Source: Lentisphaera araneosa HTCC2155
Lineage (GTDB): Bacteria; Verrucomicrobiota; Lentisphaeria; Lentisphaerales; Lentisphaeraceae
Direction: 5' to 3'
Assembly: GCF_000170755.1 (NCBI RefSeq)
Contig: NZ_ABCK01000002.1
Location: 1 to 64,000 of the forward strand
DNA length: 64,000 nt
The notes below the pieces were generated by a model. That model was not told the DNA's origin. It ran no database searches and saw only the letters and a list, made by a program, of their open reading frames with translations. The position numbers were made by a program, and so were the translations under genes. Below are positions 2,079-41,478 of the stretch, piece after piece. Each line of letters starts with the position of its first letter. The stretch's first letter is position 1.

Positions 2079-2460
2079 ATCTAATATCCCTATATTTGTC
2101 TAAATTTAGAATTATTTACAACTACAGCTGAATCATCGTTACAAAAAAAACACAATATATATAACTATTATTACATATATACATATAAATAACACAATAT
2201 ATAAACAGATAGAAGTCCATGTTTCGTGCTTATATTGGCGACAAAAGTACCGAGAACTTCTAAAAAAAATCATTACCGTTTATTAAGTAATAAACAAAAA
2301 AAACATACCTAGATAATCTACCTTAGATCAATTTCATTATTCGATATATAAAATTACTCTCCTTATTGGAATCATAAATTTTCTTATTTTAAGTAGCACC
2401 ACTAACTTAATTTGGTTAATAAGTGTAAAGCTAAATACAATTAAGACAGGACCAAAGCCC
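2079..2460. other. Intergenic AT-rich region between divergent genes
   Basis: About 380 bases without a credible gene. It holds the minus-strand promoter-like motif at 2114-2150 and an AT-rich tract rich in TATATA around 2150-2210. For the plus-strand gene an AGGA (2449-2452) precedes the ATG at 2461. No RNA gene or repeat was recognised. Confidence 0.5.
2114..2150 (-). promoter_or_regulatory. ECF-like promoter motif upstream of the pseudopilin
   Basis: Read on the minus strand: a T8 run, then GTAACG (2142-2137), 17 bases, then GTAAAT (2119-2114), ending 35 bases before the ATG at 2078. It is one of nine copies of the same two-block motif in this window. It resembles the -35/-10 layout of ECF sigma promoters. 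Confidence 0.5.
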
Positions 2461-19201: not shown

Positions 19202-20698
19202 TTATTTCATTTTAAATAGTTGTGGTACATTACCCGACTTATCATCATATTTGATAGTCAGTTCGCGTAATTGATTTTTTAAATCCTGTGCCAAATCCCG
19301 ATATTCGGGATTGTAATGGAGGTTATTCATCTCTTGGGAATCATTTTTTAAATCAAAGAGCTCCCAGCGGTAATGGCCCTTCATCCCCGGATAAAAAATC
19401 AACTTATAGCGATCGGTACGAATGCCGATCATCTCTGGTAGACGAACTCCATGGTCGTAAAAGTGGTAGTAAGAAGCATCGCGAACTTTCTCTTTCTTGC
19501 CCAATAAAATCGGCTTTAAAGAAAAACCCTGCATACCCTCTGGAATTGTGACCCCCGCAAAATCTAAAATGGTGGGAGCTATATCAACATGGCTAGTCAT
19601 GGAATTATGAACCTGACCTGCTTTTACTGTTCCTGGGAATTTCACCAGAAATGGCGCATGTAAGGGCTCTTCATACATCCATTGCTTATTATAGAAGCCG
19701 TGTTCTCCAAGTGAAAACCCTTGATCAGAAGTGTAAATAACGATGGTATTTTTCTCCAGGCCACTCTCCTTCAAATAATCTAATACACGCCCCACATTAT
19801 CATCGACAGATTTAACTAAGCGGTAATATCCCTTGATGTATTCCTGGTACATTTTACTGGTTAATTCACGTTCGCTTATATTCGGGTTTTCTTTTTCAAT
19901 CCTCGCTCGCATGGACTTAAAGGCAGGATTCAAAATAATGCGGTTTGCAGTCATTTTTCCCGCAATCGCATGGGGAGTCCGTCCCTTATAATCGTCATGT
20001 AAATTCGCTGGCTCGGGAATTGTTACATCCTTTAAATAATCTTCGTCCCTTGTAGCTGGTGTATAAGGCGCATGCGGTGGCTTGGGATGAAGTAGTAGAC
20101 AGAAAGGTTTATTTTTATTTTCTCTATTCTTGATCCAATTAATCGCCTCTGTCGTTATCACATCATTATTATAACCTTTGATAACGCGCCCTCCCTTCAT
20201 GTAGGATTTACGATCCTGGGGGCTCCAAGGCACCCACCCATGCTGAGGTTCAAAAACCCGTGGGTTAAAAGGCATGCCCTGCATTTTTTGAACACAGTAA
20301 TAATCAAAACCCGTGGGTTGCGATAAGAGGTGCCACTTACCAAACAAAGATGTTTCGTATCCCGCTTTTTGGAGCAACTTTGGAAAAGTCTGCTGCGACC
20401 CATCAAAAGACTGATTGAGCCTCGTCACTCCATTTTTATGAGAATATTTCCCCGTCAAAGCCGTCGCCCGCGATGGCGTACAAAAAGAATTAGTCACTAG
20501 CGCATGATTAAAACGCATACCGCCATCGGCTAAACGATCCAAGGCGGGCGTTTTAATACCTGTATTGCCGTAACAACTCAGCGCTTTCTTGGCATGATCA
20601 TCTGAAAAAATCAAAATAATATTGGGCCTTTGTTCAACTGCTGTTAAACTAGCTATGACGCCGAATAAAATACAGCTCACTTTATAATAAATTGTCAT
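19202..20698 (-). CDS. Sulfatase
   Basis: Exported sulfatase of 498 aa, first gene of the minus-strand cluster that runs to 14320 (gaps of 12, 1, 10 and 17 bases). Signal peptide to about residue 21; active-site CTPSR with Cys73; metal-site ILIFSDDHAKKALSCYG and IYTSDQGFSLGEHGFYNKQ; LFGKWHL pocket motif. The EPLHAPFLVKFPG and DVAPTILDFAG blocks match the large sulfatase group that includes choline- and heparan-like sulfatases. A TGTAACA-type promoter motif lies 70 bases upstream. Confidence 0.93.
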   Translation of the reverse strand: MTIYYKVSCILFGVIASLTAVEQRPNIILIFSDDHAKKALSCYGNTGIKTPALDRLADGGMRFNHALVTNSFCTPSRATALTGKYSHKNGVTRLNQSFDGSQQTFPKLLQKAGYETSLFGKWHLLSQPTGFDYYCVQKMQGMPFNPRVFEPQHGWVPWSPQDRKSYMKGGRVIKGYNNDVITTEAINWIKNRENKNKPFCLLLHPKPPHAPYTPATRDEDYLKDVTIPEPANLHDDYKGRTPHAIAGKMTANRIILNPAFKSMRARIEKENPNISERELTSKMYQEYIKGYYRLVKSVDDNVGRVLDYLKESGLEKNTIVIYTSDQGFSLGEHGFYNKQWMYEEPLHAPFLVKFPGTVKAGQVHNSMTSHVDIAPTILDFAGVTIPEGMQGFSLKPILLGKKEKVRDASYYHFYDHGVRLPEMIGIRTDRYKLIFYPGMKGHYRWELFDLKNDSQEMNNLHYNPEYRDLAQDLKNQLRELTIKYDDKSGNVPQLFKMK

Positions 20699-20768: not shown

Positions 20769-20804
20769 TTTTACAAGGCTCACACTCTTTTGTTACAAAA
20801 AAAA
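20769..20804 (-). promoter_or_regulatory. ECF-like promoter motif upstream of the sulfatase/esterase cluster
   Basis: On the minus strand: T8, GTAACA (20796-20791), 16 bases, GTAAAA (20774-20769). It is one of the nine matching motifs and the only candidate promoter seen for the five-gene cluster ending at 14320. Confidence 0.5.
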
Positions 20805-21007: not shown

Positions 21008-22429
21008 CTATTGATTTTCCTTGAGTTTTCTTTGATCCATAAACTTTTTGAATTCCTTGTACATCTCCTGAGCTCGCTCTGGATGAGAGGGTGCAAGGTC
21101 ATTTTTCTCTGCTAGATCGGAACTCAGATTATAGAGTTTAAATTGACTCATTTTGAGTGAGTCAAATTCTTTCTTCCCGCCTGACGAAATGAGTTTCCAG
21201 TCACCCATGCGAATACTTTCGCGCACCACCATTGAGGGTCGACTCTGCTTTTGATTTAAGTTAATTAGATTCTTATAAAAACTAAAGCTATCGGGCGCGA
21301 CTTGGGGATACTTTTCTTTGAGATCAACCTTGAGCAATTCTGCGATTGTCGCAAAGATATCGGTAGCATTGATGACAGCCTTACTTTGTGAATTCACGGG
21401 GATTATCCCCGGCCACTTAGCAATAAAAGGCATGCGATGTCCCCCTTCATAGCTACTTGCTTTTGCCCCACGCATCGGCCCCGATGAGTGATGCCCCTGC
21501 TCAGCCATGAGATAATGGGCTCCAGGGCCCGTACCATTATCACTCGTAAAGATTACAATTGTATTTTTCTCGAGTCCTGTATCTTTTAGGGCTTGATTAA
21601 TTTGCCCCAGTTCATCATCCATTTGCATGACAAAATCCGCGTACACGCCGAGCCCACTCTTTCCCTTAAAATTCTCACTTGGCACCCAGGGTTGGTGAGG
21701 TGCTATTGAAGCGAAATAAAGTAGGAAGGGCTGTTCTTTTGCGGACTTCGCATATTCTTGAATGAGGCCCACAGCGTTTTCGCTCAAGCGGGGGCTCACA
21801 TCTTCGAGCTTTAAATCTTTAGGGACGGCAATTTTATACTTGGATTTTTGACCTGAACCTCGAATTTTATCTACCTCAACAAACTCTGAGGAAACTTCTT
21901 GAATTTTGCGATTTTTGATGAAACAAAGAGGTGATGAACTGGCTGAGGAAGCCAAGCCAAAAAAGTAATCAAAGCCACAATCTAGTGGACCTCCACGCAA
22001 ATCTTGACTTAAATCCAAGCTCTTACTTTTATTCTCGAAACCCAAATGCCATTTGCCCACCATCCAAGTCTCATAGTCCTCGACCTTCAGTAAATCTGCT
22101 AGCGTCATTTCATCTTTGTGAATGATGGGACGCCCCGTTTTCAAAAGAGTATTAAACACCCCCGTACGAACAGGATTTATCCCCGTCAGCAAGCCATAGC
22201 GTGAGGGCGTGCAAGTTGCTGAAGCGGAGTGTGCATCAGTGAAACGCATGCCCTCTTCTGCAAGACGGTCGATATGAGGCATTTTTATTTTAGATTGGGA
22301 ATTGAAAGCCCCACAATCACCATAGCCCAAGTCATCGGCTAAAAAGATAACTATATTTGGCTTCTCCCTTCCAAATAATGGTAGCGCAAGTAATAGAAGG
22401 CTTGTAAGTAATTTAAAAAAACGATTCAT
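21008..22429 (-). CDS. Sulfatase, arylsulfatase-like
   Basis: Exported sulfatase of 473 aa. Signal peptide MNRFFKLLTSLLLLALPLFG, active-site CTPSR with Cys73, metal-site IFLADDLGYGDCGAF, IFTSDNGTGPGAHYL and KWHLGFEN. The insertion RGGPLDCGFDYFFGLASSAS is shared with the sulfatase at 36794 (EGGPAGCGFDYYFGDDV), so the two are probably the same subfamily. A single gene, divergent from the 22627 operon; both directions have a TGTAACA-type promoter motif in the 197-base gap. Confidence 0.93.
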   Translation of the reverse strand: MNRFFKLLTSLLLLALPLFGREKPNIVIFLADDLGYGDCGAFNSQSKIKMPHIDRLAEEGMRFTDAHSASATCTPSRYGLLTGINPVRTGVFNTLLKTGRPIIHKDEMTLADLLKVEDYETWMVGKWHLGFENKSKSLDLSQDLRGGPLDCGFDYFFGLASSASSSPLCFIKNRKIQEVSSEFVEVDKIRGSGQKSKYKIAVPKDLKLEDVSPRLSENAVGLIQEYAKSAKEQPFLLYFASIAPHQPWVPSENFKGKSGLGVYADFVMQMDDELGQINQALKDTGLEKNTIVIFTSDNGTGPGAHYLMAEQGHHSSGPMRGAKASSYEGGHRMPFIAKWPGIIPVNSQSKAVINATDIFATIAELLKVDLKEKYPQVAPDSFSFYKNLINLNQKQSRPSMVVRESIRMGDWKLISSGGKKEFDSLKMSQFKLYNLSSDLAEKNDLAPSHPERAQEMYKEFKKFMDQRKLKENQ

Positions 22430-22455: not shown

Positions 22456-22483
22456 ACTTACAGATTCATTTTCCATTTGTTAC
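22456..22483 (-). promoter_or_regulatory. ECF-like promoter motif for the 21008-22429 sulfatase
   Basis: Minus strand TGTAACA, 16 bases, GTAAGT, ending 26 bases before the ATG. It is back to back with the plus-strand motif at 22562-22591. Confidence 0.5.
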
Positions 22484-22561
22484 ATAAAAGGTAAAAGCTG
22501 ATGCCACAGAGGCGGATAAAAACTATCACAATTAGGAAATGATCTTTTTTTTACTTTTTCA

Positions 22562-22591
22562 TGTAACAAGACCCTTTACCCTTTTGTCTGA
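22562..22591 (+). promoter_or_regulatory. ECF-like promoter motif for the 22627 operon
   Basis: TGTAACA (22562-22568), 17 bases, GTCTGA (22586-22591), preceded by a T-rich tract and located 35 bases before the ATG at 22627. Confidence 0.5.
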
Positions 22592-22626: not shown

Positions 22627-23655
22627 ATGAAATATTTAGGCATTTTACTATTTTTATTGAGTACATACTCAATCGCTCAAGACAAAGGCATTTGGACTGA
22701 TCCAGCACTAGTTCAAGAACTGACAGACTATCAAATACAAGGCGATTACAGAGCTGCTTCGTATGGCGCCCAAGTCATTGCTTTAGGTGATAATTACTAT
22801 TCAGCTGTCGTTTACAAAGGTGGCCTTCCGGGTGATGGTTGGGATGAAAAAAATAAAACAATTTTAGATGGCAAACAAGAAGGTGACAGCGTCGAATTCA
22901 AATCTTCCAAGGCACCCAAAAAGTATTATGCACCCAAAGCAGAGCAGTTCTCGCCAGTCAAAAAGTTCCCTCCTAAGGGGCAACAACAGGCTAGCGGCTC
23001 AATTGTCAAAAATGTCTTTGAAATAACTCTCAAAGGCGAAAAATTTGAACTCAAGAAAATTAATCGTACCAGTCCTACCATGGGCGCTAAAGCACCCGAG
23101 GGCGCCGTTGTTTTATTTGATGGCAGCAATATCGAAGCCTTTACAAAAGGTCGGATTGATGCAAAAACAAAAACTCTGCACACCGATGCTAGGGACCTTT
23201 ACACAAAAGAAAAGTTCAATAATTACACTCTACATATAGAATTCATGACCCCCTACATGCCTTCTTATCGCGGGGCTAAACGCGGCAATAGTGGAATTTA
23301 TCATGTCTGGGATTACGAATTACAAATTCTCGACTCCTATGGCCTCGACGGAGTTCATAGTGAATGTGGTGGGATTTACAAAACGCAGGCTCCTCGTATC
23401 AACATGTGCTTTCCTCCTCTTACCTGGCAAACTTATGATGTGGAATTCACTAATTCAGTCTTTAAAAATGGCAAAAAAATTAAAAGCGCATTTATTACTG
23501 TGAAACACAATGGAGTGCTCATTCACGATAATACCGAAATTCCTGCAAAAACTGGCGGCTCACGCAAAACTCCAGAGGGCCAACCTGGTCCCTTCCGTTT
23601 ACAGGGTCATGGCAACAAAATTCAATATCGCAATATCTGGCTCATTAAAAAGTAG
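22627..23655 (+). CDS. 3-keto-disaccharide hydrolase domain protein (DUF1080)
   Basis: Exported protein of 342 aa (signal peptide MKYLGILLFLLSTYSIAQ). The C-terminal half, about 155-342, is a 3-keto-disaccharide hydrolase/DUF1080 jelly-roll: VVLFDGSNIEAF, YTLHIEFMTPY, RGNSGIYHVWDYELQILDS, WQTYDVEF and the closing IQYRNIWLI. The family cleaves 3-keto-glycosides or binds sugars. AGGAAG 6-11 bases upstream supports the ATG. First gene of an operon with a cytochrome c protein and a propeller protein; together they suggest a periplasmic route that oxidises a sugar at C3 and then cleaves it. Confidence 0.88.
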   Translation: MKYLGILLFLLSTYSIAQDKGIWTDPALVQELTDYQIQGDYRAASYGAQVIALGDNYYSAVVYKGGLPGDGWDEKNKTILDGKQEGDSVEFKSSKAPKKYYAPKAEQFSPVKKFPPKGQQQASGSIVKNVFEITLKGEKFELKKINRTSPTMGAKAPEGAVVLFDGSNIEAFTKGRIDAKTKTLHTDARDLYTKEKFNNYTLHIEFMTPYMPSYRGAKRGNSGIYHVWDYELQILDSYGLDGVHSECGGIYKTQAPRINMCFPPLTWQTYDVEFTNSVFKNGKKIKSAFITVKHNGVLIHDNTEIPAKTGGSRKTPEGQPGPFRLQGHGNKIQYRNIWLIKK

Positions 23656-23664
23656 GTTCTCACC

Positions 23665-24951
23665 ATGATTAAAACATTATTTTCAGTACTCAGTTTATCT
23701 CTCTTCTCCTTATCAGCGCAAGATGCTCAATCAGTTGAGCGAGGCAAAGCTCTATACGATAATATCTGCTTTTCTTGTCACGGAAAAAACCTTGAAGGCG
23801 GCGTCGGCTTTAACCTCAAGGATCACGAATGGATTCACGGCAATAGTCCCCAAAAAATTAGTGAAACAATCAAAAAGGGTTTCCCTGACAAAGGTATGAT
23901 TGCTTTTGGAGCCCTCTACAATGATGCGCAAATTCAGGATATCACTAATTTCATTTTATCACGCCAGGAAGGACTACGTGACCTGAAATATAAAATCTAT
24001 CACGATGTGACAATTGAATCCGGCATTGATTGGGACAAACAAACGCCGAGTAAAACTGGTCAGAGCAAATTACCTTACCCTAATTTCCAGCTTCCTGAAG
24101 TGGACCAATTTGCCATGGCCTATAAAGGTAAACTCATTATCCCCAGCCATGCAGCGGGCTCCTTTAAGCTCGTTGGTATGTTTCGCCAAACAGAGGGTTT
24201 TGAACTCTATATTGATGGAGAAAAAATCAATCTTAACTTAGATAAGCGTAAGCGCTTTAAGGAAAGTATACAACTCAGTGCTGGCGCCCATGACTTTGAC
24301 TTACGTTTTATCAAAGTTTTTCGCTTTGCGAGCTTCAACATGGATCTCATTGGAAAAGTCAGGCTTCCACTTGCGATTGATTCCTACCGTCGCTCCATCA
24401 ATAAAGCCCACGTTGTTGAAGCAGGGGAGTCATTTAAAATCATTCGCAAACGCATAAAAAATTATGCCGCTGAGAGCATTGCGGTTAATCATGCCGATCG
24501 CAGCACCTATATCATTGATCCCAATAGCGCGGGCATCACTGCTTTTTGGGAAGGCAAGTCACTCGACATTGGGCCCAACATTAATGAACGAGGCCAACAC
24601 GACTCTCTCCCCCTCGGCAAAACGCAAATTAAACTTGGCGATGCCATAAAAGCTCAAATAAATAATGCGCCCACTCAATTAGCCTACCGTGGTTATTCGT
24701 CCCACCCTCAACCCAAATTCATCTTCTCTGATGGTAAGTCCCAACTTGAAATCACGAGTCAACTCGCTGGTCCATCTTTGCTATTGACTTATGCCTTAAA
24801 AAACTCGAAGCAAGCTAAATTGAGTTTAAGCCTTCCGACAGGATTAAAAGTCAGCTCAAAAGACGGCAAAATAAATGGAAGCGCTTTTATTCCAAACCCC
24901 GATAAACAAAACCAATTCACAATCGCAATCCCCGTAAAGGAGAAAAAATAA
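23665..24951 (+). CDS. Cytochrome c with PA14-like carbohydrate module
   Basis: Exported protein of 428 aa (signal peptide to SLSAQ). An N-terminal class I cytochrome c domain carries the haem motif CFSCHG at about residues 35-40, with a GAL(Y) region and a candidate distal Met in DKGMIAFGAL. Residues about 150-240 resemble a PA14-type module (FRQTEGFELYIDGEKI), and the C-terminus is beta-rich. It is 9 bases after the hydrolase gene, and its stop shares a base with the next ATG. It likely passes electrons from the propeller dehydrogenase partner to the respiratory chain. Confidence 0.83.
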   Translation: MIKTLFSVLSLSLFSLSAQDAQSVERGKALYDNICFSCHGKNLEGGVGFNLKDHEWIHGNSPQKISETIKKGFPDKGMIAFGALYNDAQIQDITNFILSRQEGLRDLKYKIYHDVTIESGIDWDKQTPSKTGQSKLPYPNFQLPEVDQFAMAYKGKLIIPSHAAGSFKLVGMFRQTEGFELYIDGEKINLNLDKRKRFKESIQLSAGAHDFDLRFIKVFRFASFNMDLIGKVRLPLAIDSYRRSINKAHVVEAGESFKIIRKRIKNYAAESIAVNHADRSTYIIDPNSAGITAFWEGKSLDIGPNINERGQHDSLPLGKTQIKLGDAIKAQINNAPTQLAYRGYSSHPQPKFIFSDGKSQLEITSQLAGPSLLLTYALKNSKQAKLSLSLPTGLKVSSKDGKINGSAFIPNPDKQNQFTIAIPVKEKK

Positions 24952-26375
24952 TGAAATACTTCATCTCCTCACTCCTATTACTCACTATGGCTATGAGCTC
25001 TATGGCCAATCCCAAGGGCTATAGTATTCAAACTATTGAAACACCCCCGAATGTTCTCTTTCACATTACCGGCCTGGATACCGATAAAGATGGCAATATG
25101 TACTGTGCCACACGCTATGGTGATGTGTGGGTCTACAAAGTCCAAAATAAAACCTGGCACAAATTTGCCGAAGGGCTGCATGAACCCTGCGGACTTTTGA
25201 TCGAAAACGATGGCTCCTTAGTCGTAACTCAAAAACCAGAAATGACGCGCCTCATTGACTCCAATAAAGATGGCAAAGCCGACCTCTACATCCCACTCAC
25301 GAGAGAGTTCAAGTTTCACAATAACTACCACGAATTTAACTTTGGTGGCGTAAAAGATAATGACGGAAATTACATTGGCACTCTCGGCACTGCTGCTGGT
25401 CCAACTGCCAAAGGCCTCAAACTCAGTGCCATGGCAAGTTTAGGTGATTGGCGTGGATGGGCCTACAAAGTCTCGCCCGAAGGGAAATTCACACCCATTG
25501 CCTCCGGTCTACGCTCTCCTGCGGGCTTGGGCAGAAACCCTGCCGGCGAAATCTTTTACACCGATAATCAGGGTGACTACGTTGCCACCTCTACCATGCA
25601 TCAAATCCTGCCTAATAAATTTTATGGACACCCGGTTTCTCTACAGGATCGTGATGATTTTACTGTTGATCAACTCAAAAAAATGACGGATGAAGAATTT
25701 GATGCGATTCGTACCTTACCCGTCGTTTTTATTCCTCAGGAAGAAGTCGCCAATTCTCCTGGCAACCCCGAATGGATTGATAATTCGGGTAAATTCGGCC
25801 CCTTTAAAGATCAGTTCTTTGTCGGTGACCAAACTCGCTCTAACATTTTTCGCGTCACGCTTCAGGAAGTCAAAGGTCGCTACCAAGGCTGTGTGATTGA
25901 CTTCATCTCTGGCCTCCAATGCGGTAATATCCGCCTCAAATTTGACAAAGACGGGGCCCTCTGGAGTGGTCAAACAAGTCGCGGCTGGACCTCACGTGGT
26001 TCAAAAACTTTTGGCCTGCAAAAAGTCGTCTGGGATAAAAAGACCATGCCCTTCGAGATCCTCGATGTAAAGCTCACCAATTCCGGCTTCACTGTTCAGT
26101 TCACTGAAAAAATTAATGAAAAATCAATTGATCAGACCAAGATCTCCCGCTGGTGGTATGAGTACTCCAGAAAATATGGCGCCCCAAAAAGTGACTTGGA
26201 AGACATTAATGCGAGCTCTGTAAAACTAGCCGCCGATGGTAAAACTTTGACTATCGACTGCCCCCTCGTCAAAGAAAAAGTTTACTGCTTGGACTTTAGT
26301 GAAATCAATAACTCCAAAGGTGAAAAACTCGGCAACACCAAAGCCTATTACACCATCGTAAATCTCTTAGATTAA
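24951..26375 (+). CDS. PQQ/sorbosone dehydrogenase-like beta-propeller protein
   Basis: Exported protein of 474 aa (signal peptide MKYFISSLLLLTMAMSSMA). Repeated propeller blades: ITGLDTDKDGNMYCATRYGDVW, GLRSPAGLGRNPAGEIFYTDNQGDYV and QTSRGWTSRGSKTFGLQKV. This matches the soluble glucose/sorbosone dehydrogenase-like family that accompanies cytochrome c in Planctomycetota. It is very similar in design to the propeller region of the protein ending at 9369. The start overlaps the preceding stop (TAATG). Substrate unknown. Confidence 0.83.
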   Translation: MKYFISSLLLLTMAMSSMANPKGYSIQTIETPPNVLFHITGLDTDKDGNMYCATRYGDVWVYKVQNKTWHKFAEGLHEPCGLLIENDGSLVVTQKPEMTRLIDSNKDGKADLYIPLTREFKFHNNYHEFNFGGVKDNDGNYIGTLGTAAGPTAKGLKLSAMASLGDWRGWAYKVSPEGKFTPIASGLRSPAGLGRNPAGEIFYTDNQGDYVATSTMHQILPNKFYGHPVSLQDRDDFTVDQLKKMTDEEFDAIRTLPVVFIPQEEVANSPGNPEWIDNSGKFGPFKDQFFVGDQTRSNIFRVTLQEVKGRYQGCVIDFISGLQCGNIRLKFDKDGALWSGQTSRGWTSRGSKTFGLQKVVWDKKTMPFEILDVKLTNSGFTVQFTEKINEKSIDQTKISRWWYEYSRKYGAPKSDLEDINASSVKLAADGKTLTIDCPLVKEKVYCLDFSEINNSKGEKLGNTKAYYTIVNLLD

Positions 26376-26404: not shown

Positions 26405-26433
26405 TGTAACAGCGCATTTGAATCCTTGTCAGT
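26405..26433 (+). promoter_or_regulatory. ECF-like promoter motif for the second pseudopilin
   Basis: TGTAACA (26405-26411), 16 bases, GTCAGT (26428-26433), 27 bases before the ATG at 26461, directly behind the preceding operon. Confidence 0.5.
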
Positions 26434-26460: not shown

Positions 26461-27183
26461 ATGAAGACAAAGTTTACACTCATTGAACTGCTGGTTGTCG
26501 TCGCTATAATCGGCATCTTAGCCAGCTTACTCTTGCCATCTTTGGGTAAGGCAAGAAAAAATGCAAAGAAAGCCTCATGCATTAATAACATGAAGCAATT
26601 AGGTATAATTAATTATTTATACTCTGATGATAATAATGATTACTTTCCCGCTAGAGACAGAAACAATCATATTTCTTACGACGATTTTTTAGCGGGATAC
26701 GACACGAGAGAAAGCCTAACTACAGCAGAAATGCAAGCCACTTCAGCACCAGGAGCTGAAATGTATGAATGCCCTTCGAGTATTTTTACAGTAGAGAATA
26801 AAAGGTCCTACGCCATCAATGGCAAAGGCAATGGCGCCCAATTAAAATTCCTAGGTATTTCAGGGAATGCTCCCTCCCCGAATAGTAAAAAGATTAGTGC
26901 AATTAATCAAAGTTCATCGACCATTGCCTATGGAGAAACAGGGGGAAGCAGCAGTATCATGGGCAGTCGAAATAATGACATTACCATTGCTCATTTTATG
27001 AACAACTCTCTTTTCGTTAGCTTAACTCATGGAGGTAAAGAATACCACGACTCTAAGAGCAATTACCTAATGGTTGATAGTCATGTTGAAAGCAAAGCAT
27101 TCAATTCGACACTAGTGAATTTAGGGGGTGGCATGGCTACTACAGATGACGTCACTGGCTCATACTGGGATGCAGAAAAGTAA
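26461..27183 (+). CDS. Prepilin-type N-terminal methylation domain protein (pseudopilin)
   Basis: Protein of 240 aa. Class III leader MKTK then [21 protein letters not shown] with Glu at mature +5, followed by [23 protein letters not shown]. The C-terminal [11 protein letters not shown] corresponds to the DG motif of the H-X9-DG family, with Asp-Ser in place of Asp-Gly. It shares the C-terminal WD ending (SYWDAEK) with the 1308-2078 protein (MWDSAK). It lies just upstream of the sigma factor gene and carries the same promoter-like motif, so it is a likely member of that regulon. Confidence 0.88.
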
Positions 27184-27237: not shown

Positions 27238-27267
27238 TGTAACAAAGTTATTAAAAACCTTGTATGT
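27238..27267 (+). promoter_or_regulatory. ECF-like promoter motif upstream of the sigma factor gene
   Basis: A T5 run leads into TGTAACA (27238-27244), then 17 bases and GTATGT (27262-27267), 112 bases before the TTG start at 27380. Presence in front of the only sigma gene of the window suggests autoregulation. Confidence 0.5.
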
Positions 27268-27379
27268 AAAGTAAACGCTCGAAAACAACAATAATAGTAC
27301 GATGTTCTTGGACTTAAACTTGCTTTGAACTTTGTCGACAACATATAGTTAGTCATTTACAAAAAACAGAGACCACATT

Positions 27380-27985
27380 TTGAAGCATACTGATAATACG
27401 CGCCATACACTCCTGCAAAAAATTAAAGACCCCAACAATGAAAATTCTTGGGAGGAGTTTGTGGAATACTACTCAGGCTACATCTACGTCATTATCAGGA
27501 ATTTCCGAGTCGACATTGAAGATTCAGAGGACCTCATGCAAGACGTTTTGATAAAAGTTTGGAAAGGCATACGCACTTATGATCCAGCGGCTCAAAGAAG
27601 TAAATTCCGGACTTGGCTTTGCAGTGTGATTCGCAACACCGTCTTTAACTTCCTCAAATCAAAATCAGTCCGCAATTCCAAACAAAATATTTCCTACAAC
27701 GATGCACTCGAACAAATGAATTTGGTCAACGAGGCCGAAGTGGATAAGATAGCCGAAAAAGAATGGCAAAACTATATTGCTAACCTCGCATGGAAAAATA
27801 TAAAAAATGACCTTAGCGAGATGAATCGCAATATCTTTGAGGACTCATTAACAGAAACTTTCAGCAATGCCGACTTAGCTGAGAAATACAGCATTGCCGA
27901 AGCGAGTGTTCGCGTTTACAAAATGCGCGTTAAGAAAGCCTTATCCAAAGAAATTGTCCGTCTCAATACTGAACTTAGCTGGTAA
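27380..27985 (+). CDS. RNA polymerase sigma factor, ECF/sigma-70 family
   Basis: Sigma factor of 201 aa with region 2 (about 20-95: WEEFVEYYSGYIYVII, DLMQDVLIKVWKGI, FRTWLCSVIRNTVFNFLKS) and region 4 (about 140-195: NADLAEKYSIAEASVRVYKMRVKKAL). The start is TTG at 27380; the conserved N-terminal MKHTDNTRHTLLQKIKDP of this planctomycete/lentisphaera group depends on it. It lies 6 bases before a Ser/Thr kinase gene, the pairing known for several kinase-linked ECF groups in which the kinase is thought to control sigma activity. It probably recognises the TGTAACA-N16/17-GT motif; that link is inference. Confidence 0.88.
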   Translation: MKHTDNTRHTLLQKIKDPNNENSWEEFVEYYSGYIYVIIRNFRVDIEDSEDLMQDVLIKVWKGIRTYDPAAQRSKFRTWLCSVIRNTVFNFLKSKSVRNSKQNISYNDALEQMNLVNEAEVDKIAEKEWQNYIANLAWKNIKNDLSEMNRNIFEDSLTETFSNADLAEKYSIAEASVRVYKMRVKKALSKEIVRLNTELSW

Positions 27986-27991
27986 ACACGC

Positions 27992-30052
27992 ATGCGTGAA
28001 GAAGAGAACTTCTTTGAGAATATTAACGATCTATTTATTCAAGCTTTTGAAACAGATCAAGGCTCCTTAATCAACTCCCTACAATTTGAAGGAGACAATT
28101 TTGTAGAATACGAAACCTATAGTGAGGGCGGGATAAAGGAGATTTCTCTTTGTACGGATCGTCGCACGGGTAGACGCGTAGCAATGGCTTTTCTCAAGGA
28201 TAATACTGACCCTCAAAAAACTGAAGCTTTCCTAAGAGAAGCGAAAATAAATGCTGCACTTCAGCATCCCAATATTGTTCCCATTTATGAAATGGGTATT
28301 GATGGAGACAAACCCTGGTTTGCCATGAAATTTATTGCGGGCAAATCTCTAGCAGACATAATTTTGAAAACTAAAAGTCTTGAAGAACCTGATTTAGATT
28401 TCACCCTTAATCAAAGACTCGATATCTTCATGAAAGTTTGCGATGCCATTGCCTACTCACATTCTCTTGGAGTACTTCATCTGGATATAAAACCCGATAA
28501 CATACGCATCAGTAACTTTGGTGATGTCGTCGTATGTGATTGGGGTCTGGCCGATATCGAGGCAACTATTTGCGACGAAAAACTTCTTGAGTTTTGTACC
28601 ATTCTTGAACACGACATTAATAATCAAACCTTAGATGGCTCAGTTAAAGGTACTCCTGGATATATGGCTCCGGAACAAACGTCTTTAGTCAAATACCGCA
28701 AAGCTTGCCACACTGACATTTTTTCACTGGGCACATTACTCTACTCATTACTTACTCTGGAAAAGCCTTTCAAAGGTTTTGATATTAATGACATCATCAA
28801 AAAAACAGCTAAATGTGACTTCATAGAGCCCTCCAAACTTGATGTAAATATCCCTGAGTCCCTTGAAGCCGTATGCCTCAAGGCCATGCAACTTAAACCC
28901 GAAGATCGCTACCAAAGTGTGGAAGATCTTCAAAAAGACATCGAAGCCTACCGCAATGGTTTTGCGACCTACGCAGAAAATGCCTCTTTATTTAAACTTA
29001 TAAAACTCATGATTTATCGCAATAAATTAAGGAGTTGCTTGCTGTTTAGTCTAATGTCCTTAATCGTCATTCTTGGTTTTGTATTTGTACGTAATTTGGA
29101 CCTATCAAAACAATTCATTCAAAAAGAAAATGAAAAACTCCTTTTAGAACAGGAATTATACCGTCAAAGAGGAAAAGACTCGGCTCCACTTTTTTTAGAA
29201 CAGGCGGAGCAGAGCCTGAAAATCTTTGCTCTCGATAGCGCCATGCATTTCTGCAAGGAAGCTCTCGAGCGTGATGATCAATTAAAGAAAGCTTGGAAAC
29301 TGAAAGCCTTGCTCCATTTTGCCAATGAAGAATATCAACTTTGCATTAAAGCATTTGAGAGTGCCAATATCAGGGAAGGCCGTCTCTATAAACTGGCGAA
29401 AACTGCAAGAAACTTAGAACTCGAAAATTCTGATAAAAATAAATTAAATGTACGCAAAGACATTCTCCAACGCCTACATAAAGTCAAAGACATGCCGACT
29501 TTTTCACTTCTTCTCCACAGTATAGTTCACAAAGAAATGCCAATTGAAGATCGGCTAGACTTATGCCGCTTTGTCATTGATTTAAGACACAATCGCCCCA
29601 AAAATGAGCCCTTTAATTTTTCTTACGACCCAAAAAATCAAACCTTGGATATATCTAATAATCCCTGGATCAAAATTGCTCACTGTCTGCAAAATTTCCC
29701 TGCAAAAACTATTAATGCCTCAAACACTTCTATAAGTCGTGGTAGTAATTTTAATAATTCCCCAGTGGAGTCTCTAGATATTAGCAATACTCAAATACTT
29801 GAACTTAAAAGCCTTAAATGCAAAAACTTAAAAGAACTCTACGTGTCCGGCAACATAATTCACGATATATCTCCTTTAGAAAATTTGGAACTAGTTACTC
29901 TAGATATAAGCCACACTCCCATTCGCTACCTAAACTTCATTCCCAAATTCACTCATCTCAAGAATCTTATAATTCACAAAGGCCAGTTCAATAAAACTCA
30001 ATTTAGATGGAAAAGACCTGACTTGGAAATCATTACTAAACCACGCAATTAA
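27992..30052 (+). CDS. Membrane Ser/Thr protein kinase-like protein with TPR-like and LRR C-terminus
   Basis: Protein of 686 aa. Kinase fold about 35-315: LREAKINAALQHPNIVPIYEMG, then HLDIKPDN at 163-170 (HRD changed to HLD; catalytic Asp, Lys and Asn kept), DWG at 183-185 in place of DFG, and KGTPGYMAPEQ activation segment. The beta-3 strand reads VAMAFLK, so the usual VAxK lysine position is Ala and a later Lys may substitute. A transmembrane helix lies at about 348-367 (LLFSLMSLIVILGFVFV). A TPR-like helical stretch (about 400-460) and leucine-rich repeats (about 570-680; LDISNTQILELKSLKCKNL) follow outside the membrane. Probably senses an envelope signal and controls the adjacent sigma factor. 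Confidence 0.86.
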   Translation: MREEENFFENINDLFIQAFETDQGSLINSLQFEGDNFVEYETYSEGGIKEISLCTDRRTGRRVAMAFLKDNTDPQKTEAFLREAKINAALQHPNIVPIYEMGIDGDKPWFAMKFIAGKSLADIILKTKSLEEPDLDFTLNQRLDIFMKVCDAIAYSHSLGVLHLDIKPDNIRISNFGDVVVCDWGLADIEATICDEKLLEFCTILEHDINNQTLDGSVKGTPGYMAPEQTSLVKYRKACHTDIFSLGTLLYSLLTLEKPFKGFDINDIIKKTAKCDFIEPSKLDVNIPESLEAVCLKAMQLKPEDRYQSVEDLQKDIEAYRNGFATYAENASLFKLIKLMIYRNKLRSCLLFSLMSLIVILGFVFVRNLDLSKQFIQKENEKLLLEQELYRQRGKDSAPLFLEQAEQSLKIFALDSAMHFCKEALERDDQLKKAWKLKALLHFANEEYQLCIKAFESANIREGRLYKLAKTARNLELENSDKNKLNVRKDILQRLHKVKDMPTFSLLLHSIVHKEMPIEDRLDLCRFVIDLRHNRPKNEPFNFSYDPKNQTLDISNNPWIKIAHCLQNFPAKTINASNTSISRGSNFNNSPVESLDISNTQILELKSLKCKNLKELYVSGNIIHDISPLENLELVTLDISHTPIRYLNFIPKFTHLKNLIIHKGQFNKTQFRWKRPDLEIITKPRN

Positions 30053-30251
30053 AAACCTACTTCTTGAAAATTTTAAACTTTTTTCAAAAAAAACGCCAGT
30101 AAGAGCTAGAGTTTAAAGATATTACTCTGAACAGGGCATAGGATTTTATGAGTAAATCAATCAAATTTATAGAAAGAAAAATTGGTCAAAGTTTAAGAAT
30201 TAGACTGCTGATTTTGTAACATAATTTATCAACAACAAGGAAACACTTACT

Positions 30252-31709
30252 ATGTCCTACATTAAACTGATCCTCTTTTTAAGCTTTTCTTTATTGGCTT
30301 GTGCAAATAAAAAACCCAATTTCATATTTTTTATTTCAGATGATATCTCCCAAAGTGATTTTGGCTGTTATGGGCATCCAATTATCAAGACTCCGTCAAT
30401 CGATGAACTAGCTCAAAAAGGCATGCGTTTTCACAATGCCTACCTTACAACAAGTAGCTGCAGTCCCAGCCGTTGCAGTATAATCAGCGGCCGCTATCCT
30501 CATAATACCGGTGCGCCAGAACTTCATATGAAATTGCCAGATGACCAAATTCGCTTTCCCGAACTACTTAGAAAAGCAGGTTATTACACCCTTCTTTGTG
30601 GCAAAAACCACATGTTTGGAGACCAAGACCGAGCTTTTGACAAGATAACGAGAGGCGAGGGCCCTGGGAATGAAAAAAATTGGGTTCCCAACCTTAAAGA
30701 GCGCCCAAAAGACAAGCCCTTTTTCTTTTGGTATGCTTCTTCAGATGCCCACCGGAGCTGGCAATTGAGTGACCATGCTCCCAAATATGATGAGAATAAA
30801 GTCATCGTTCCGCCCTACATGTATGATGGCCCTGAGACACGCAAAGATCTTGCCCAATATTATCATGAAGTTAGTCGTTTTGATCATTTTATCGGCTTGG
30901 TTGTGGAAGAACTTAAATCACAAGGAATTCTCGAAAATACAATGCTGATTGTCGCTTCTGATAATGGTCGCCCCTTCCCAAGAGATAAATCGCGACTTTA
31001 TGATAGCGGTATAAAAACTCCCTGGGTGGTTCATTTCCCTCGAATAATTAAAGAAAAAAAGGTCACTCAAAGCTTGATAAGTTCAATCGACCTAAGCGCC
31101 ACGTGTTTGGAATTAGCTGGGGTCGAAATCCCCGAAAACATACAGGGCAAAAGCTTTCTACCCATTCTAAAAAATCCAGAGACAAAAGTCCGCCAAGTCA
31201 TTTTTGCTGAACATAATTGGCACGTTTATAAAAACCACGAACGCATGGTTCGCATTGGGGATTTTGTCTACATTAAAAACAACTACCCCAATCAAATGAA
31301 TCTATCTTACGAATCAGACACGAAATACCCTGCTGGAAAAGAATTATGGCTTGCCCATGCAGCGGGAAAAACCTCCAAAGTTCAGCAGCAAATTTTTGCT
31401 AATCCATGCCCAGAAGAAGAACTCTACAAAGTTAGTCAGGATCCCGACCAACTCAATAATCTGGCTTCAAATCCAGAATACAAAACACAGTTAATCCAAG
31501 CACGAGAAATGATTCAATTATGGACTGAACAGACGGGAGACAGCATTCCCAAAAAAACTACGCCTCATCGACATGCTCCACCAAAAATTAAAAATGGTAA
31601 AATAATCCCGTCACCAAAATATAAACTGAAATCACCCCACGCCGAATGGCCTGGCCAATCAAAGCAGGCTGATAAAATTAATCATCCCGGACCAATAGTT
31701 TTGCCCTAA
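30252..31709 (+). CDS. Sulfatase, possible lipoprotein
   Basis: Sulfatase of 485 aa. The N-terminus ILFLSFSLLAC resembles a lipoprotein signal with Cys17, so membrane anchoring is possible. Active-site CSPSR with Cys70, metal-site FIFFISDDISQSDFGCYG, LLCGKNHMFG and IVASDNGRPFPRDKS. The heparan N-sulfatase-like layout (short C-terminal domain, KTPWVVHFP) suggests the SGSH-like group. TTTTGTAACA lies 31 bases upstream, but without the downstream GT block. A GH29 remnant follows directly after the stop. Confidence 0.92.
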   Translation: MSYIKLILFLSFSLLACANKKPNFIFFISDDISQSDFGCYGHPIIKTPSIDELAQKGMRFHNAYLTTSSCSPSRCSIISGRYPHNTGAPELHMKLPDDQIRFPELLRKAGYYTLLCGKNHMFGDQDRAFDKITRGEGPGNEKNWVPNLKERPKDKPFFFWYASSDAHRSWQLSDHAPKYDENKVIVPPYMYDGPETRKDLAQYYHEVSRFDHFIGLVVEELKSQGILENTMLIVASDNGRPFPRDKSRLYDSGIKTPWVVHFPRIIKEKKVTQSLISSIDLSATCLELAGVEIPENIQGKSFLPILKNPETKVRQVIFAEHNWHVYKNHERMVRIGDFVYIKNNYPNQMNLSYESDTKYPAGKELWLAHAAGKTSKVQQQIFANPCPEEELYKVSQDPDQLNNLASNPEYKTQLIQAREMIQLWTEQTGDSIPKKTTPHRHAPPKIKNGKIIPSPKYKLKSPHAEWPGQSKQADKINHPGPIVLP

Positions 31710-33700: not shown

Positions 33701-33729
33701 TGTAACAGCAGTCAATTAACTTGGTCTAT
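33701..33729 (+). promoter_or_regulatory. ECF-like promoter motif for the sialate O-acetylesterase-like gene
   Basis: TGTAACA (33701-33707), 16 bases, GTCTAT (33724-33729), 51 bases before the ATG at 33781. It lies about 150 bases outside the IS element, so it was not brought by it. Confidence 0.5.
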
Positions 33730-33780: not shown

Positions 33781-35346
33781 ATGAAATTACTGACTTTTAA
33801 AATAACCCTGATTATAAGTATGGTATCCACAATAGTCATGGCAGATATTAAACCTGCTCAGCTCTTTGTGAATCATATGGTTATTCAAAGAGATGTAAAA
33901 GCACCAATATGGGGGACTGCTGAACCAGGGGAACAAATAAAGCTAACAGCTAGTTGGGGAGCAACTGCCGAAACGATTGCCGACAAAGAAGGTAATTGGT
34001 TAGTTAAACTACAAACTCCTGAAGCGGGTGGTCCCCATTCCATAAGCTTCTTAGGTAAAAATCAGATTATTCTCAAAGACGTTTTAAGTGGAGATGTATG
34101 GTTATGTTCAGGTCAATCCAACATGGGCTGGCCCATTGCTAAATCTAAAAATGCAAAATTAGAGATTGCTCAGGCCAATTTCCCTCTCATAAGAAGTTTT
34201 AAAGTCGAAAGAAATCCTTCCCTGCAAAAAACTAAAGTCGTACAAGGTGAATGGCAGGTTTGTTCGCCAGCAAGTGCTGCGGAGTTTTCAGCCACCGCTT
34301 ACTTCACAGGACGCAAACTCCACAAAGAACTCAACATTCCAATTGGCCTACTAACTACTTGCTGGGGGGGCACATGCGTTGAGGCCTGGACTCCATGGTC
34401 CGATCAATCAGATGATTCATTTGCTCAAAATAGAAAAAACCTCTTGGATGAAAAAGCCGAGTCTTACACTCCCGAAAGTGCAAAAGCCAAGTACGAAAAA
34501 AAGTTGGCTGAATGGAATAAAAAAGTTAGTCAAGAGACAAATAACAAAAAGCGTAAACCACGTAAACCTCAACTCCAAACAGATCCACAATTAGACCAAA
34601 ACTACCCCGGGAATCTATACAATGGTATGTTGTATTCACTCATCCCATATGCAATAAAGGGTGCAATTTGGTATCAAGGAGAAAACAACTCTAAAAGTAT
34701 TGCTTCTGCAAAACATTATCGCTATCAATTAACTCAAATGATCAAAAGTTGGCAAAAATCTTGGGAGTGGGAGTTCCCATTCTACTGTGTTCAACTACCA
34801 AATTACAAAAGCCCTCAATCACAACCAGTGGAAAAAAATAATATTTGGCCCTTTATCAGAGAAAGTTTTATTTTTACTACCAAAAATGCACCAAATACCT
34901 TCACAATTTGTACTATTGATTTGGGAGAAGCTAAGGACATTCACCCCAAGAATAAACAAGATGTGGGCAAGCGCATGGCATCCACGATTCTCAATAAAAC
35001 TTTCGGTAAAAACACTCCTACTACACCAATTATGAAATCTTATGAAATCACAGATGATAGGGTTATCATAAATTTTGATTACTCAGGATCCGGATTGCTA
35101 GCCAAGGGCGATAAACTCAAGGCCTTTGCGATTGCCGGAGAAGATAAACAGTTTGTTTGGGCTGATGCGGTCATTGTTAATAAAAATGGCATCGAATCTG
35201 TGGTAGTTAGTTCCTCAGCAGTTAAGAAGCCCGTTGCAGTACGCTACGGTTGGGCTGACAACCCCGTGAATTGTAACTTATATTCCAAAGAAGGTTTTCC
35301 CGCTTCGCCATTTCGCACAGATAATTGGGAATTGAACTCTAAGTAA
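33781..35346 (+). CDS. Sialate O-acetylesterase-like (SASA domain) protein
   Basis: Exported SGNH-type esterase of 521 aa (signal peptide to VMA). An N-terminal beta-sandwich (LFVNHMVIQRDVKAPIWGTAEPGE) precedes the catalytic SASA domain: nucleophile in GQSNM at 111-115, WYQGENN, and the Asp/His pair in KDIHPKN. The C-terminal VRYGWADNPVNCNLYSKEG block is typical of the family. It removes acetyl groups from sugars such as sialic acids or acetylated xylans. First of a plus-strand run with sulfatases; a degraded relative is at 42993-43130. Confidence 0.9.
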   Translation: MKLLTFKITLIISMVSTIVMADIKPAQLFVNHMVIQRDVKAPIWGTAEPGEQIKLTASWGATAETIADKEGNWLVKLQTPEAGGPHSISFLGKNQIILKDVLSGDVWLCSGQSNMGWPIAKSKNAKLEIAQANFPLIRSFKVERNPSLQKTKVVQGEWQVCSPASAAEFSATAYFTGRKLHKELNIPIGLLTTCWGGTCVEAWTPWSDQSDDSFAQNRKNLLDEKAESYTPESAKAKYEKKLAEWNKKVSQETNNKKRKPRKPQLQTDPQLDQNYPGNLYNGMLYSLIPYAIKGAIWYQGENNSKSIASAKHYRYQLTQMIKSWQKSWEWEFPFYCVQLPNYKSPQSQPVEKNNIWPFIRESFIFTTKNAPNTFTICTIDLGEAKDIHPKNKQDVGKRMASTILNKTFGKNTPTTPIMKSYEITDDRVIINFDYSGSGLLAKGDKLKAFAIAGEDKQFVWADAVIVNKNGIESVVVSSSAVKKPVAVRYGWADNPVNCNLYSKEGFPASPFRTDNWELNSK

Positions 35347-35399
35347 AAATCCGACATATATCCAAATTACACAAATTAAAATTCTATTGAAAGGTAAAA

Positions 35400-36713
35400 A
35401 TGATTAACCATATAAGCTCATCCATCAGATGGATCGCAGTTGTCGCATTATCCATGACAATTAACTTTGCGACTCTCGATGCTCAAGCAAGCAAACCGAA
35501 TATTATTCTCATTATGGCAGATGATATCGCCTACGATAATATCGCTTGTTATGGAAGTAATTATTTCAAAACTCCGCGCTTAAATCAACTGGCTCAAACC
35601 GGGGTGAAGTTTAATCATTGCTACTCTGAGCCCGTATGTACACCAAGCCGAGTGAAAATCATGACCGGTCGAGATGGCATCCGTAACTACGTTGGCTTCG
35701 GCATCCTGGATAAGAAGGAAACTACTTTTGGTACCATGATGAAAGAGGCTGGCTATGCAACTGCTGTGGCAGGTAAATGGCAGCTCTACACTGGTCGAAA
35801 AGGTTCTCTCGCGCCCGACTGCGGTTTTGACACCTACTGTTTATGGAGCTACCCAGGAACAGAAAGGAGTCGTTTTTGGAATCCAAGTCTGATTCGCGAT
35901 GGCAAGAAAGTTCCTGTCACACCCAATTCCTACGGTCCAGATATTTGTACGGACTTCATAATCGATTTTATTAAAAAGAATAAAAGCCAACCTTTCTTCG
36001 CCTACTATCCGATGCTCTTAGTTCACAGTCCCTTTGTGCCAACCCCAGATAGTAAGGACAAAAACAGCACTAATAAACTCGAAAACTATCGCGATATGGT
36101 TAGTTATATGGACAAGTGCATCGGAAGAATAATCGATACTTTGGAAGAAACAAATTTACGCAAAAACACCATCGTTCTCTTTACCACCGACAACGGAACC
36201 GGTAGACCACTCACTTACCCCTACAAAGGAGAAAAACGCGTTGGAGAAAAAGCTTATCCAACAGACGGTGGCTCACATGTTCCGCTCATCGTAAACGGCC
36301 CAGGAATTGTGTCTCAAGGATTAGTAAGCGATGACATTGTGGACTTCTCCGACTTTCTCCCAACTCTAGCAGATATAAGTGGTGCTAACCTGCCTAATGT
36401 CACATTAGATGGACGCTCTTTTTGGCCACAGTGTCTCGGTAAGAAAGGTTCTCCACGGGAATGGATATTCCAGTATTATCATCCAAAATTAAAAAACGCC
36501 GCCAAAGAGTATGGTAATGGCAAACCCTATATTATCTGGGCACAAGATCAAAGCTATAAACTCTACTCTCACGGCAAGTTTATTGAGACTAAAGATCGCC
36601 ACGAAAAAATAAATATCTTACCAGGCACAGGCACTCCGGAAGCTGAGTCGGCTCGAAAGAAACTCCAAGCGGCCATCGACAGTATGCCCAAAAGCAACGC
36701 TAACATGAAATAA
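35400..36713 (+). CDS. Sulfatase
   Basis: Exported sulfatase of 437 aa. Signal peptide to LDAQA, active-site CTPSR with Cys80, metal-site ILIMADDIAYDNIACYG and LFTTDNGTGR; VAGKWQLY has Gln where most relatives have His. The short length and GFDTYCLWSYPG segment match the group of compact sulfatases common in Lentisphaera. It is 53 bases behind the acetylesterase gene, and its stop is 3 bases before an attC-like site in the same orientation, as in an integron gene cassette. Confidence 0.92.
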   Translation: MINHISSSIRWIAVVALSMTINFATLDAQASKPNIILIMADDIAYDNIACYGSNYFKTPRLNQLAQTGVKFNHCYSEPVCTPSRVKIMTGRDGIRNYVGFGILDKKETTFGTMMKEAGYATAVAGKWQLYTGRKGSLAPDCGFDTYCLWSYPGTERSRFWNPSLIRDGKKVPVTPNSYGPDICTDFIIDFIKKNKSQPFFAYYPMLLVHSPFVPTPDSKDKNSTNKLENYRDMVSYMDKCIGRIIDTLEETNLRKNTIVLFTTDNGTGRPLTYPYKGEKRVGEKAYPTDGGSHVPLIVNGPGIVSQGLVSDDIVDFSDFLPTLADISGANLPNVTLDGRSFWPQCLGKKGSPREWIFQYYHPKLKNAAKEYGNGKPYIIWAQDQSYKLYSHGKFIETKDRHEKINILPGTGTPEAESARKKLQAAIDSMPKSNANMK

Positions 36714-36715
36714 AT

Positions 36716-36773
36716 ACCGAACAAGACGGATGCAGACGACGCTTGACAGCGCGCCTGATCCGAGCCGTTCGGT
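36716..36773 (+). other. attC-like recombination site
   Basis: Imperfect palindrome with the full attC plan. Outer arms CCGAAC (36717-36722) and GTTCGG (36767-36772); unpaired AAGA/AGCC; inner arms CGGAT/ATCCG, CAG/CTG, CG/CG and CGCT/AGCG with single extra bases G36732 and A39 (36739) all on one strand; loop TGAC. The R' box GTTCGGT fits GTTRRRY except position 4, and R'' ACCGAAC is the matching complement. It is GC-rich against an AT-rich background. No integrase gene is in the window. Confidence 0.6.
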
Positions 36774-36793
36774 GCATTGATAAAGAGAAAAAT

Positions 36794-38341: not shown

Positions 38342-38460
38342 CGTACATCGTTAAGAATAGAGCACCAAAAATACCGTTAAAAGGCTAAGTCTTACAAGCG
38401 TGTGAGAACGGAGCCATGCGATAGAATAGAAAATGAATATCACTAGAATAAGGAAAAAAA

Positions 38461-39870: not shown

Positions 39871-39889
39871 CTCAATGGGGACACTATAA

Positions 39890-41419: not shown

Positions 41420-41478
41420 CTGTTAATAAACCGCCGTCAAATTTTAGAGAATTATTAAATATCAATAGGAAAACTTAA

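Follow-up and report, generated by a model that had tools for sequence, protein, structure and literature searches.

We examined a sigma factor-kinase gene pair in the first 64,000 nucleotides of contig NZ_ABCK01000002.1 of Lentisphaera araneosa HTCC2155 (hereafter the window). On the plus strand, an open reading frame (ORF) at 27380..27985 with a TTG start encodes a 201-residue sigma factor of the extracytoplasmic function (ECF) type, and a second ORF at 27992..30052 encodes a 686-residue kinase of the no-lysine (WNK-type) Hanks class; 6 bp separate the sigma stop codon from the kinase ATG. The sigma factor was identified by Pfam and NCBIfam matches and a paralogue alignment (Sigma70_r2, E 2.9e-14; TIGR02937, the ECF superfamily profile, E 2.7e-21 and 75.9 bits against a cut-off of 42.9), with region 4 giving a sub-threshold match in the family profile search. 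The kinase matched Pkinase well above the curated cut-off (E 1.5e-35; 123 bits against 31.7) and has the αC Glu, catalytic Asp, Asn and DFG Asp expected of a Hanks-type Ser/Thr kinase. An earlier reading of this DNA made from its letters alone (the sequence-only reading) had proposed an ECF sigma factor coupled to an atypical membrane kinase 6 bases downstream, and the profile matches, the ORF coordinates (27985 and 27992) and the pairing of the two families bear this out. What makes the kinase atypical, as read from the alignments, is a specific, conserved residue change and not the mere loss of a lysine.

The domain organization of the kinase was derived from profiles, alignments and an AlphaFold2 model with 58 paralogues as input (mean predicted local distance difference test score, 89.7). 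The model consists of a kinase domain, whose nearest solved fold is that of PknB; a long helix (residues 345-410) that holds the transmembrane segment (residues 348-366, 29033..29089, plus strand; hydropathy peak 2.66); helical, TPR-like repeats (residues 414-533, 29231..29590, plus strand); and an LRR-like strand ladder (residues 541-686, 29612..30049, plus strand). The corresponding profile matches were weak for TPR_1 (E 0.019) and clear for LRR_4 (E 4.4e-7), the latter being found in 13 of 58 family members. The single transmembrane helix and the TPR/LRR-like tail of the sequence-only reading were therefore recovered; as for the extracytoplasmic side that it gave the tail, the positive residues preceding the helix suggest that the kinase domain lies inside and the tail outside. 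Tails vary among the paralogues of this genome, with matches to CBM6, CBM35 or EF-hand domains in single members, replacing TPR/LRR or alongside it. Such tails would fit carbohydrate or ion sensing, which is only a hint.

Alignment of the kinase domain to PknB and WNK1 revealed that the β3 Lys of the VAIK motif is replaced by Ala66 (VAMA; 28187..28189, plus strand), as in all family members, and that a Lys occupies the third position of the glycine loop (Lys49 in SEGGIK; 28136..28138, plus strand), where it is proposed to be the catalytic Lys equivalent to WNK1 K233. In this alignment GRGSFK of WNK1, whose sequence was checked against PDB entry 5w7t, lies opposite SEGGIK, and VAWC lies opposite VAMA. 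The window kinase thus has the residue pair that defines WNKs, a Lys at loop position 55 and a residue other than Lys at β3. The rest of the active site is complete, with the αC glutamate Glu83 (28238..28240), the catalytic base Asp165 of HLD, the counterpart of HRD (28484..28486), and the metal-binding Asp183 of DWG, the counterpart of DFG (28538..28540), all on the plus strand. The sequence-only reading had listed VAMA, HLD and DWG together with retained catalytic Asp, Lys and Asn, and each was seen as described (A66, D165 and D183, with K167 and N170 kept); a substitute for the missing Lys is now supplied by K49, which the alignment finds conserved throughout the family.

The residue change was then placed in the context of all kinases of the genome. 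In paralogue alignments A1 and A2, A66, E83, D165, K167, N170 and D183 were invariant (E83, D165 and D183 in 58 paralogues); the sequences in A1 and A2 were chosen by the loop-Lys pattern, and the invariance of K49 in them is therefore by construction, whereas that of the other six residues is not. A census free of motif-based selection, in which every usable kinase of the genome (68 in all) was aligned with PknB, gave 58 kinases with the loop x-x-G-[G/A/S/M]-x-K-x-[I/V] plus β3 [V/I/L]-A-x-A and 10 ordinary kinases with Gly or Ser at the loop position and the β3 Lys kept; none was mixed. Likewise, none of 137 kinases from fetched loci was mixed, 91 being ordinary and 46 having the loop Lys and β3 Ala (Lys/Ala), or 45 in relatives, since one locus (L201) belongs to the window's own genome. 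The idea that K69, three residues on (VAMAFLKD), replaces the β3 Lys instead of the loop Lys draws on the presence of K69 in the window kinase and many paralogues; it was rejected and is very improbable, because K69 is not conserved (other paralogues read VAYAQLLP, VAMAELLP, VALARLQN or IALAEL) whereas the loop Lys is.

These results bear on whether the protein is a kinase at all. The standard definition of a pseudokinase given in PMC12599244, a missing β3 Lys, covers the window kinase, and the HRD Arg and DFG Phe are changed too, so that the protein could be a scaffold that performs no phosphorylation, binds nucleotide or nothing, and controls the sigma factor by binding in the manner of a membrane anti-sigma or co-sigma factor. 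We consider this unlikely, since 58 paralogues show no variation in the remaining catalytic and metal-binding residues, the HRD and DFG Asp being retained in the window kinase itself, and no kinase has lost the β3 Lys without having a loop Lys. Known bacterial pseudokinase families, in contrast, have lost several motifs as far as the same source describes them: ActPs1-3, GLW, CP1, DYD and DLHK resemble the window kinase in that the β3 Lys is absent or replaced in several of them, but they have Arg or a hydrophobic residue at β3 and mostly lack further motifs (PMC12599244). The portion of that paper available to us describes none of them with a loop Lys and a complete site, nor in Lentisphaerota.

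The kinase belongs to a large family in its genome (6.0 Mb, 81 contigs), where 107 stretches match it and about 60 family members are 610-800 residues long; the sigma factor has 60 close paralogues. A sigma paralogue lies within 5 kb of 54 of the 71 best kinase matches; in 36 of these 54 the sigma gene is upstream on the same strand and in 13 the two genes are convergent, the remainder having other layouts. About 50 sigma-kinase pairs are thereby present in the genome. The distances among kinases correlated strongly with those among their neighbouring sigma factors (50 pairs; Mantel r 0.75, maximum of 5,000 permutations 0.16, p 0.0002), both for the 34 same-strand pairs (r 0.85, p 0.0002) and for the 16 opposite-strand pairs (r 0.69, permutation maximum 0.58, p 0.0002). 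These data indicate that sigma factor and kinase evolve as partners even where a common transcript is impossible. One family kinase (G000:C7:244481-246171, locus L052) reads 126 residues and then an in-frame TAA beside an intact sigma gene, and is probably one half of a broken pair.

The sigma-kinase operon has a predicted ECF promoter ahead of the sigma gene, TGTAACA N16 TGTA (27238..27264, plus strand), a bipartite motif with fixed spacing. The sequence-only reading had noted a motif ahead of the sigma gene, and TGTAACA at 27238 is indeed common to it and to sulfatase genes. TGTAAC[A/G] occurs at 16 sites in the window, and all 8 intergenic ones lie 37-142 bp upstream of a same-strand start; the space within 160 bp upstream of a right-strand start, which contains 8 of the 16 sites, makes up only 2.6% of positions (binomial p ~2e-9). 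Besides the sigma gene, the motif-bearing genes are three sulfatase genes, two pilin-like genes, a 3-keto-disaccharide hydrolase operon and an esterase-sulfatase operon. On the plus strand, TGTAACA lies 37 bp upstream (30215..30221) of a sulfatase gene that is a predicted target (30252..31709, plus strand; PF00884, E 6.9e-46), and also upstream of the operon 33781-42990, which encodes a SASA-type esterase and several sulfatases (33701..33707), of the pilin-like gene 26461-27183 (26405..26411) and of 22627-26375, which encodes a 3-keto-disaccharide hydrolase, cytochrome c and an SGL-like protein (22562..22568). On the minus strand, TGTAACA precedes the sulfatase genes 21008-22429 (22478..22484) and 19202-20698 (20791..20797), the latter first in a minus-strand gene run, and TGTAACG precedes the DUF1559 pilin-like gene 1308-2078 (2137..2143). 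Pilin-like genes with DUF1559 or a type II pseudopilin N-terminus recur near sigma-kinase pairs, and an AraC-type regulator (43308-45143) directly follows the esterase-sulfatase operon, where it could form a second layer of control.

The motif was also evaluated beyond the window. In 1.2 Mb of fetched DNA it was enriched 25-29-fold in upstream intergenic DNA (TTGTAACA, 29-fold), and TTGTAACA was enriched 6.65-fold within 10 kb of members of the window's sigma subclade (p 1e-5). [GT][GT]TA stood exactly 16 bases after TGTAACn at 8 of 26 intergenic sites near the subclade versus 4 of 278 others (p 4e-7, which is somewhat optimistic because the spacing element had been noticed in the same sequences before testing). 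Among related sigma genes, the -35 part was present upstream of those in G002, G004 and G005, with the whole bipartite motif in G002 and G005, and the motif was not found upstream of the relative in G001. G005 also contains near-identical TGTAAC[AG]AATTGAA..TAACA repeats on contigs C89, C213, C215, C242, C245, C259 and C264, several at contig ends; these probably represent a repetitive element that has nothing to do with the promoter motif. As a motif of all sigma paralogues, TGTAAC was rejected: only 4 of 55 have it upstream, so that it belongs to the window's subclade and the other subclades must read other sequences.

The sulfatase genes among the predicted targets recall the sulfatase regulon of the sequence-only reading, which fits the window's sigma factor and its subclade by motif and fails as a rule for the whole family. 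The genome has at least 151 sulfatase matches and 340 candidates. With the best 151 matches, 16 of 61 family kinases had a listed sulfatase at a distance of 2 kb or less where 10.2 were expected (p 0.035), and proximity at 1, 3 or 5 kb was not significant for the same 61 kinases and 151 matches; with enrichment this marginal, a sulfatase neighbourhood was rejected as a family-wide property. Because sulfatases are common throughout the genome, the link holds only for the subclade of the window's sigma factor, and it might even there be accidental, a doubtful explanation in our view: the marginal neighbourhood enrichment and genome-wide motif counts equal to the control speak for it, and the position of the window motif immediately ahead of three sulfatase genes and one sulfatase operon, together with the fixed-spacing partner element at several sites, speaks against it. 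A sulfatase regulon for the window pair, defined by motif and not by a family rule, is a fair reading.

Taken together, we propose at a probability of roughly 0.6 that the gene pair forms a signalling unit in which a membrane receptor kinase activates its partner ECF sigma factor and thereby a TGTAACA regulon. The TPR/LRR tail, presumably outside the inner membrane, would sense an extracellular or periplasmic cue. The cytoplasmic kinase domain would be active, with ATP held in WNK-like fashion by the Lys that sits in the loop instead of β3. The active kinase would switch on the sigma factor with which it co-varies, most simply by phosphorylating it, and the sigma factor is predicted from the motif to direct RNA polymerase to TGTAACA-N14..16-TTGT[A/C] promoters, its own included, with nearby sulfatase and carbohydrate-utilization operons among the targets. 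Some 50 pairs of this kind, their tails and sigma factors diverged, would work in parallel, each probably with its own signal and target set.

Several observations weigh against this proposal. The HRD Arg has become Leu and the first Gly of the loop is variable, so that the activation mechanism may differ from those of both WNK and PknB. In about one-third of the pairs, the kinase and sigma genes do not run in the same direction. Across the whole genome, the bipartite motif is no more frequent than a reversed control; TTGTAAC-N15..18-GTTA and TGTAACR-N16-KKTA were rejected as genome-wide signals for lack of an excess over the reversed pattern, and what stands out is only the set of intergenic sites near the window's sigma subclade. 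The sulfatase gene at 30252 has no clear -10 element at the fixed spacing. The sigma factor retains the acidic motif of region 2.2 (DSED in the window; position 51 is D or E in 52 of 52 paralogues), which makes the mechanism of ECF43, where a phosphate replaces a missing acid, unavailable in the same form; charge replacement of the ECF43 type was rejected on this ground. Finally, the conserved Ser and Thr residues of the sigma paralogues include no obvious phosphorylation target, only T7, T10 and S176 being widely conserved. This last point would also fit an active kinase that acts on a third protein and thereby activates the sigma factor indirectly, as would the single-copy relatives that have no sigma neighbour within the fetched stretch. 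Such a detour is a lesser possibility, given that the strong pairwise co-variation, even on opposite strands, favours direct contact or specificity.

The proposed activation of the sigma factor by its kinase has a precedent. Kinase-coupled activation is established for ECF43, in which a phosphate supplies the missing charge, and other kinase-linked ECF groups retain the acidic motif, according to PMC8999054. Like the window pair, ECF43 (EcfP-PknT, EcfK-PknS) and the Planctomycetes groups ECF59, ECF61, ECF62 and ECF217 have an ECF gene beside a Ser/Thr kinase gene and no adjacent anti-sigma gene. ECF43 lacks the acidic DAED in region 2.2 and has a phosphorylatable Thr instead, which sets the window sigma factor with its DSED outside that group. 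Unlike in any of these groups, the partner here is a no-lysine kinase, about 50 pairs occur in one genome, and many are in opposite orientation.

Relatives of the window kinase were loci fetched from genome collections, and the figures given for them cover the matches listed. Bearers of the no-lysine state were found in Lentisphaera marina, other Lentisphaeria, Pontiellaceae (Kiritimatiellota), Verrucomicrobiota JB023 and several further families of the same phylum; for the window's genus the HLD signature was counted 58, 52 and 50 times, and for a sister genus 29 and 52 times. The sigma-linked branch is expanded in the window genome and its family f1, in families f4, f29 and f18, and in Pontiellaceae and JB023. 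In the sister branch (families f5, f9 and f17), no sigma neighbour was found within the fetched stretch. In f5 the protein, a membrane kinase of short length, is encoded immediately after clpX in 13 of 14 searched f5 loci (L175, L177, L178, L181, L183, L213, L215, L218, L219, L223, L224, L226 and L227), and likewise in L252 and L253, in both of which it is preceded by tig, clpP and clpX in line. This no-lysine kinase is single-copy, has a C-terminal transmembrane helix and keeps its place after clpX across genera (for example, L253:4317-5603, plus strand), and this suggests a core role connected with protein quality control.

We reconstructed the history of the lysine change on a 106-row tree built without the trait columns. 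This tree requires two changes to the Lys/Ala state, one in bacteria and one in WNK1. With WNK1 as the lone eukaryote, its branch was very long and the approximately unbiased (AU) test uninformative (p 0.73). After addition of PAK4, OSR1 and PKA, each checked against PDB, WNK1 grouped with the eukaryotes (SH-aLRT 97) and the bacterial no-lysine kinases formed one group (92), although most branches inside the bacterial part had only moderate support. Common descent was rejected, a clade of WNK1 and the bacterial no-lysine kinases having a p-AU of 0.00024 on this sampling. With a single bacterial group and the rejection of a WNK1 grouping, the lysine swap looks convergent with that of WNK, judged from these trees. 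Three loci, L179, L180 and L182, hold the nearest relatives with an ordinary Lys and already have HLD and DWG, an intermediate by which the changes can be ordered; HLD therefore probably preceded the lysine swap.

The window kinase resembles WNK1 in having the Lys at the third loop position, no β3 Lys and the remaining catalytic residues. WNK1 differs in having Cys at β3, HRD and DLG where the window kinase has Ala, HLD and DWG, and the window kinase is, unlike WNK1, a single-pass membrane protein with a TPR/LRR tail and a sigma partner, and phylogenetically separate. PknB and PknD, bacterial Hanks kinases, are nearest by sequence and fold, from which it differs in the position of the Lys, HLD, DWG and the sensor tail. 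PMC1821047 states that the WNK loop Lys, position 55 in PKA numbering, is needed for catalysis, and describes WNKs as the sole functional protein kinase family without the β3 Lys. It also proposes a move of positive charge from position 72 to 55 in CAK-chloro kinases; these are small-molecule kinases with Met at 72 and Arg at 55 that have lost the αC Glu. A bacterial no-lysine family is not mentioned in the available portions of PMC12599244, PMC1821047, PMC8999054 or PMC11032199, the last a study of kinase expansion in Planctomycetota, and a keyword literature search, in which subscription journals were little covered, returned no other report of one.

On balance it seems probable that the WNK solution arose independently in bacteria of the Lentisphaerota-Kiritimatiellota-Verrucomicrobiota group, in an active family whose lysine moved once, long ago; some lineages would have kept just one core copy next to tig-clpP-clpX, and others would have multiplied it into about fifty receptors coupled to sigma factors. 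Should these enzymes prove active, WNKs would no longer be the sole functional protein kinases without a β3 Lys, and a textbook catalytic residue would have been relocated twice to the same spot. WNK kinases have a chloride-inhibited DLG pocket and serve in chloride or osmotic sensing; by analogy, the altered ATP site of the bacterial family might double as a pocket that senses an ion or metabolite. As a natural replicate, the family would allow one to ask what purpose the lysine relocation serves. Pipelines that call kinases dead by the absence of the VAIK Lys would misfile all of it. With about fifty diverged, co-varying pairs and a readable motif for one subclade, it offers a ready system for specificity in one-step signalling from receptor to transcription, a form of sigma-kinase signalling that is possibly linked to the breakdown of sulfated polysaccharides.

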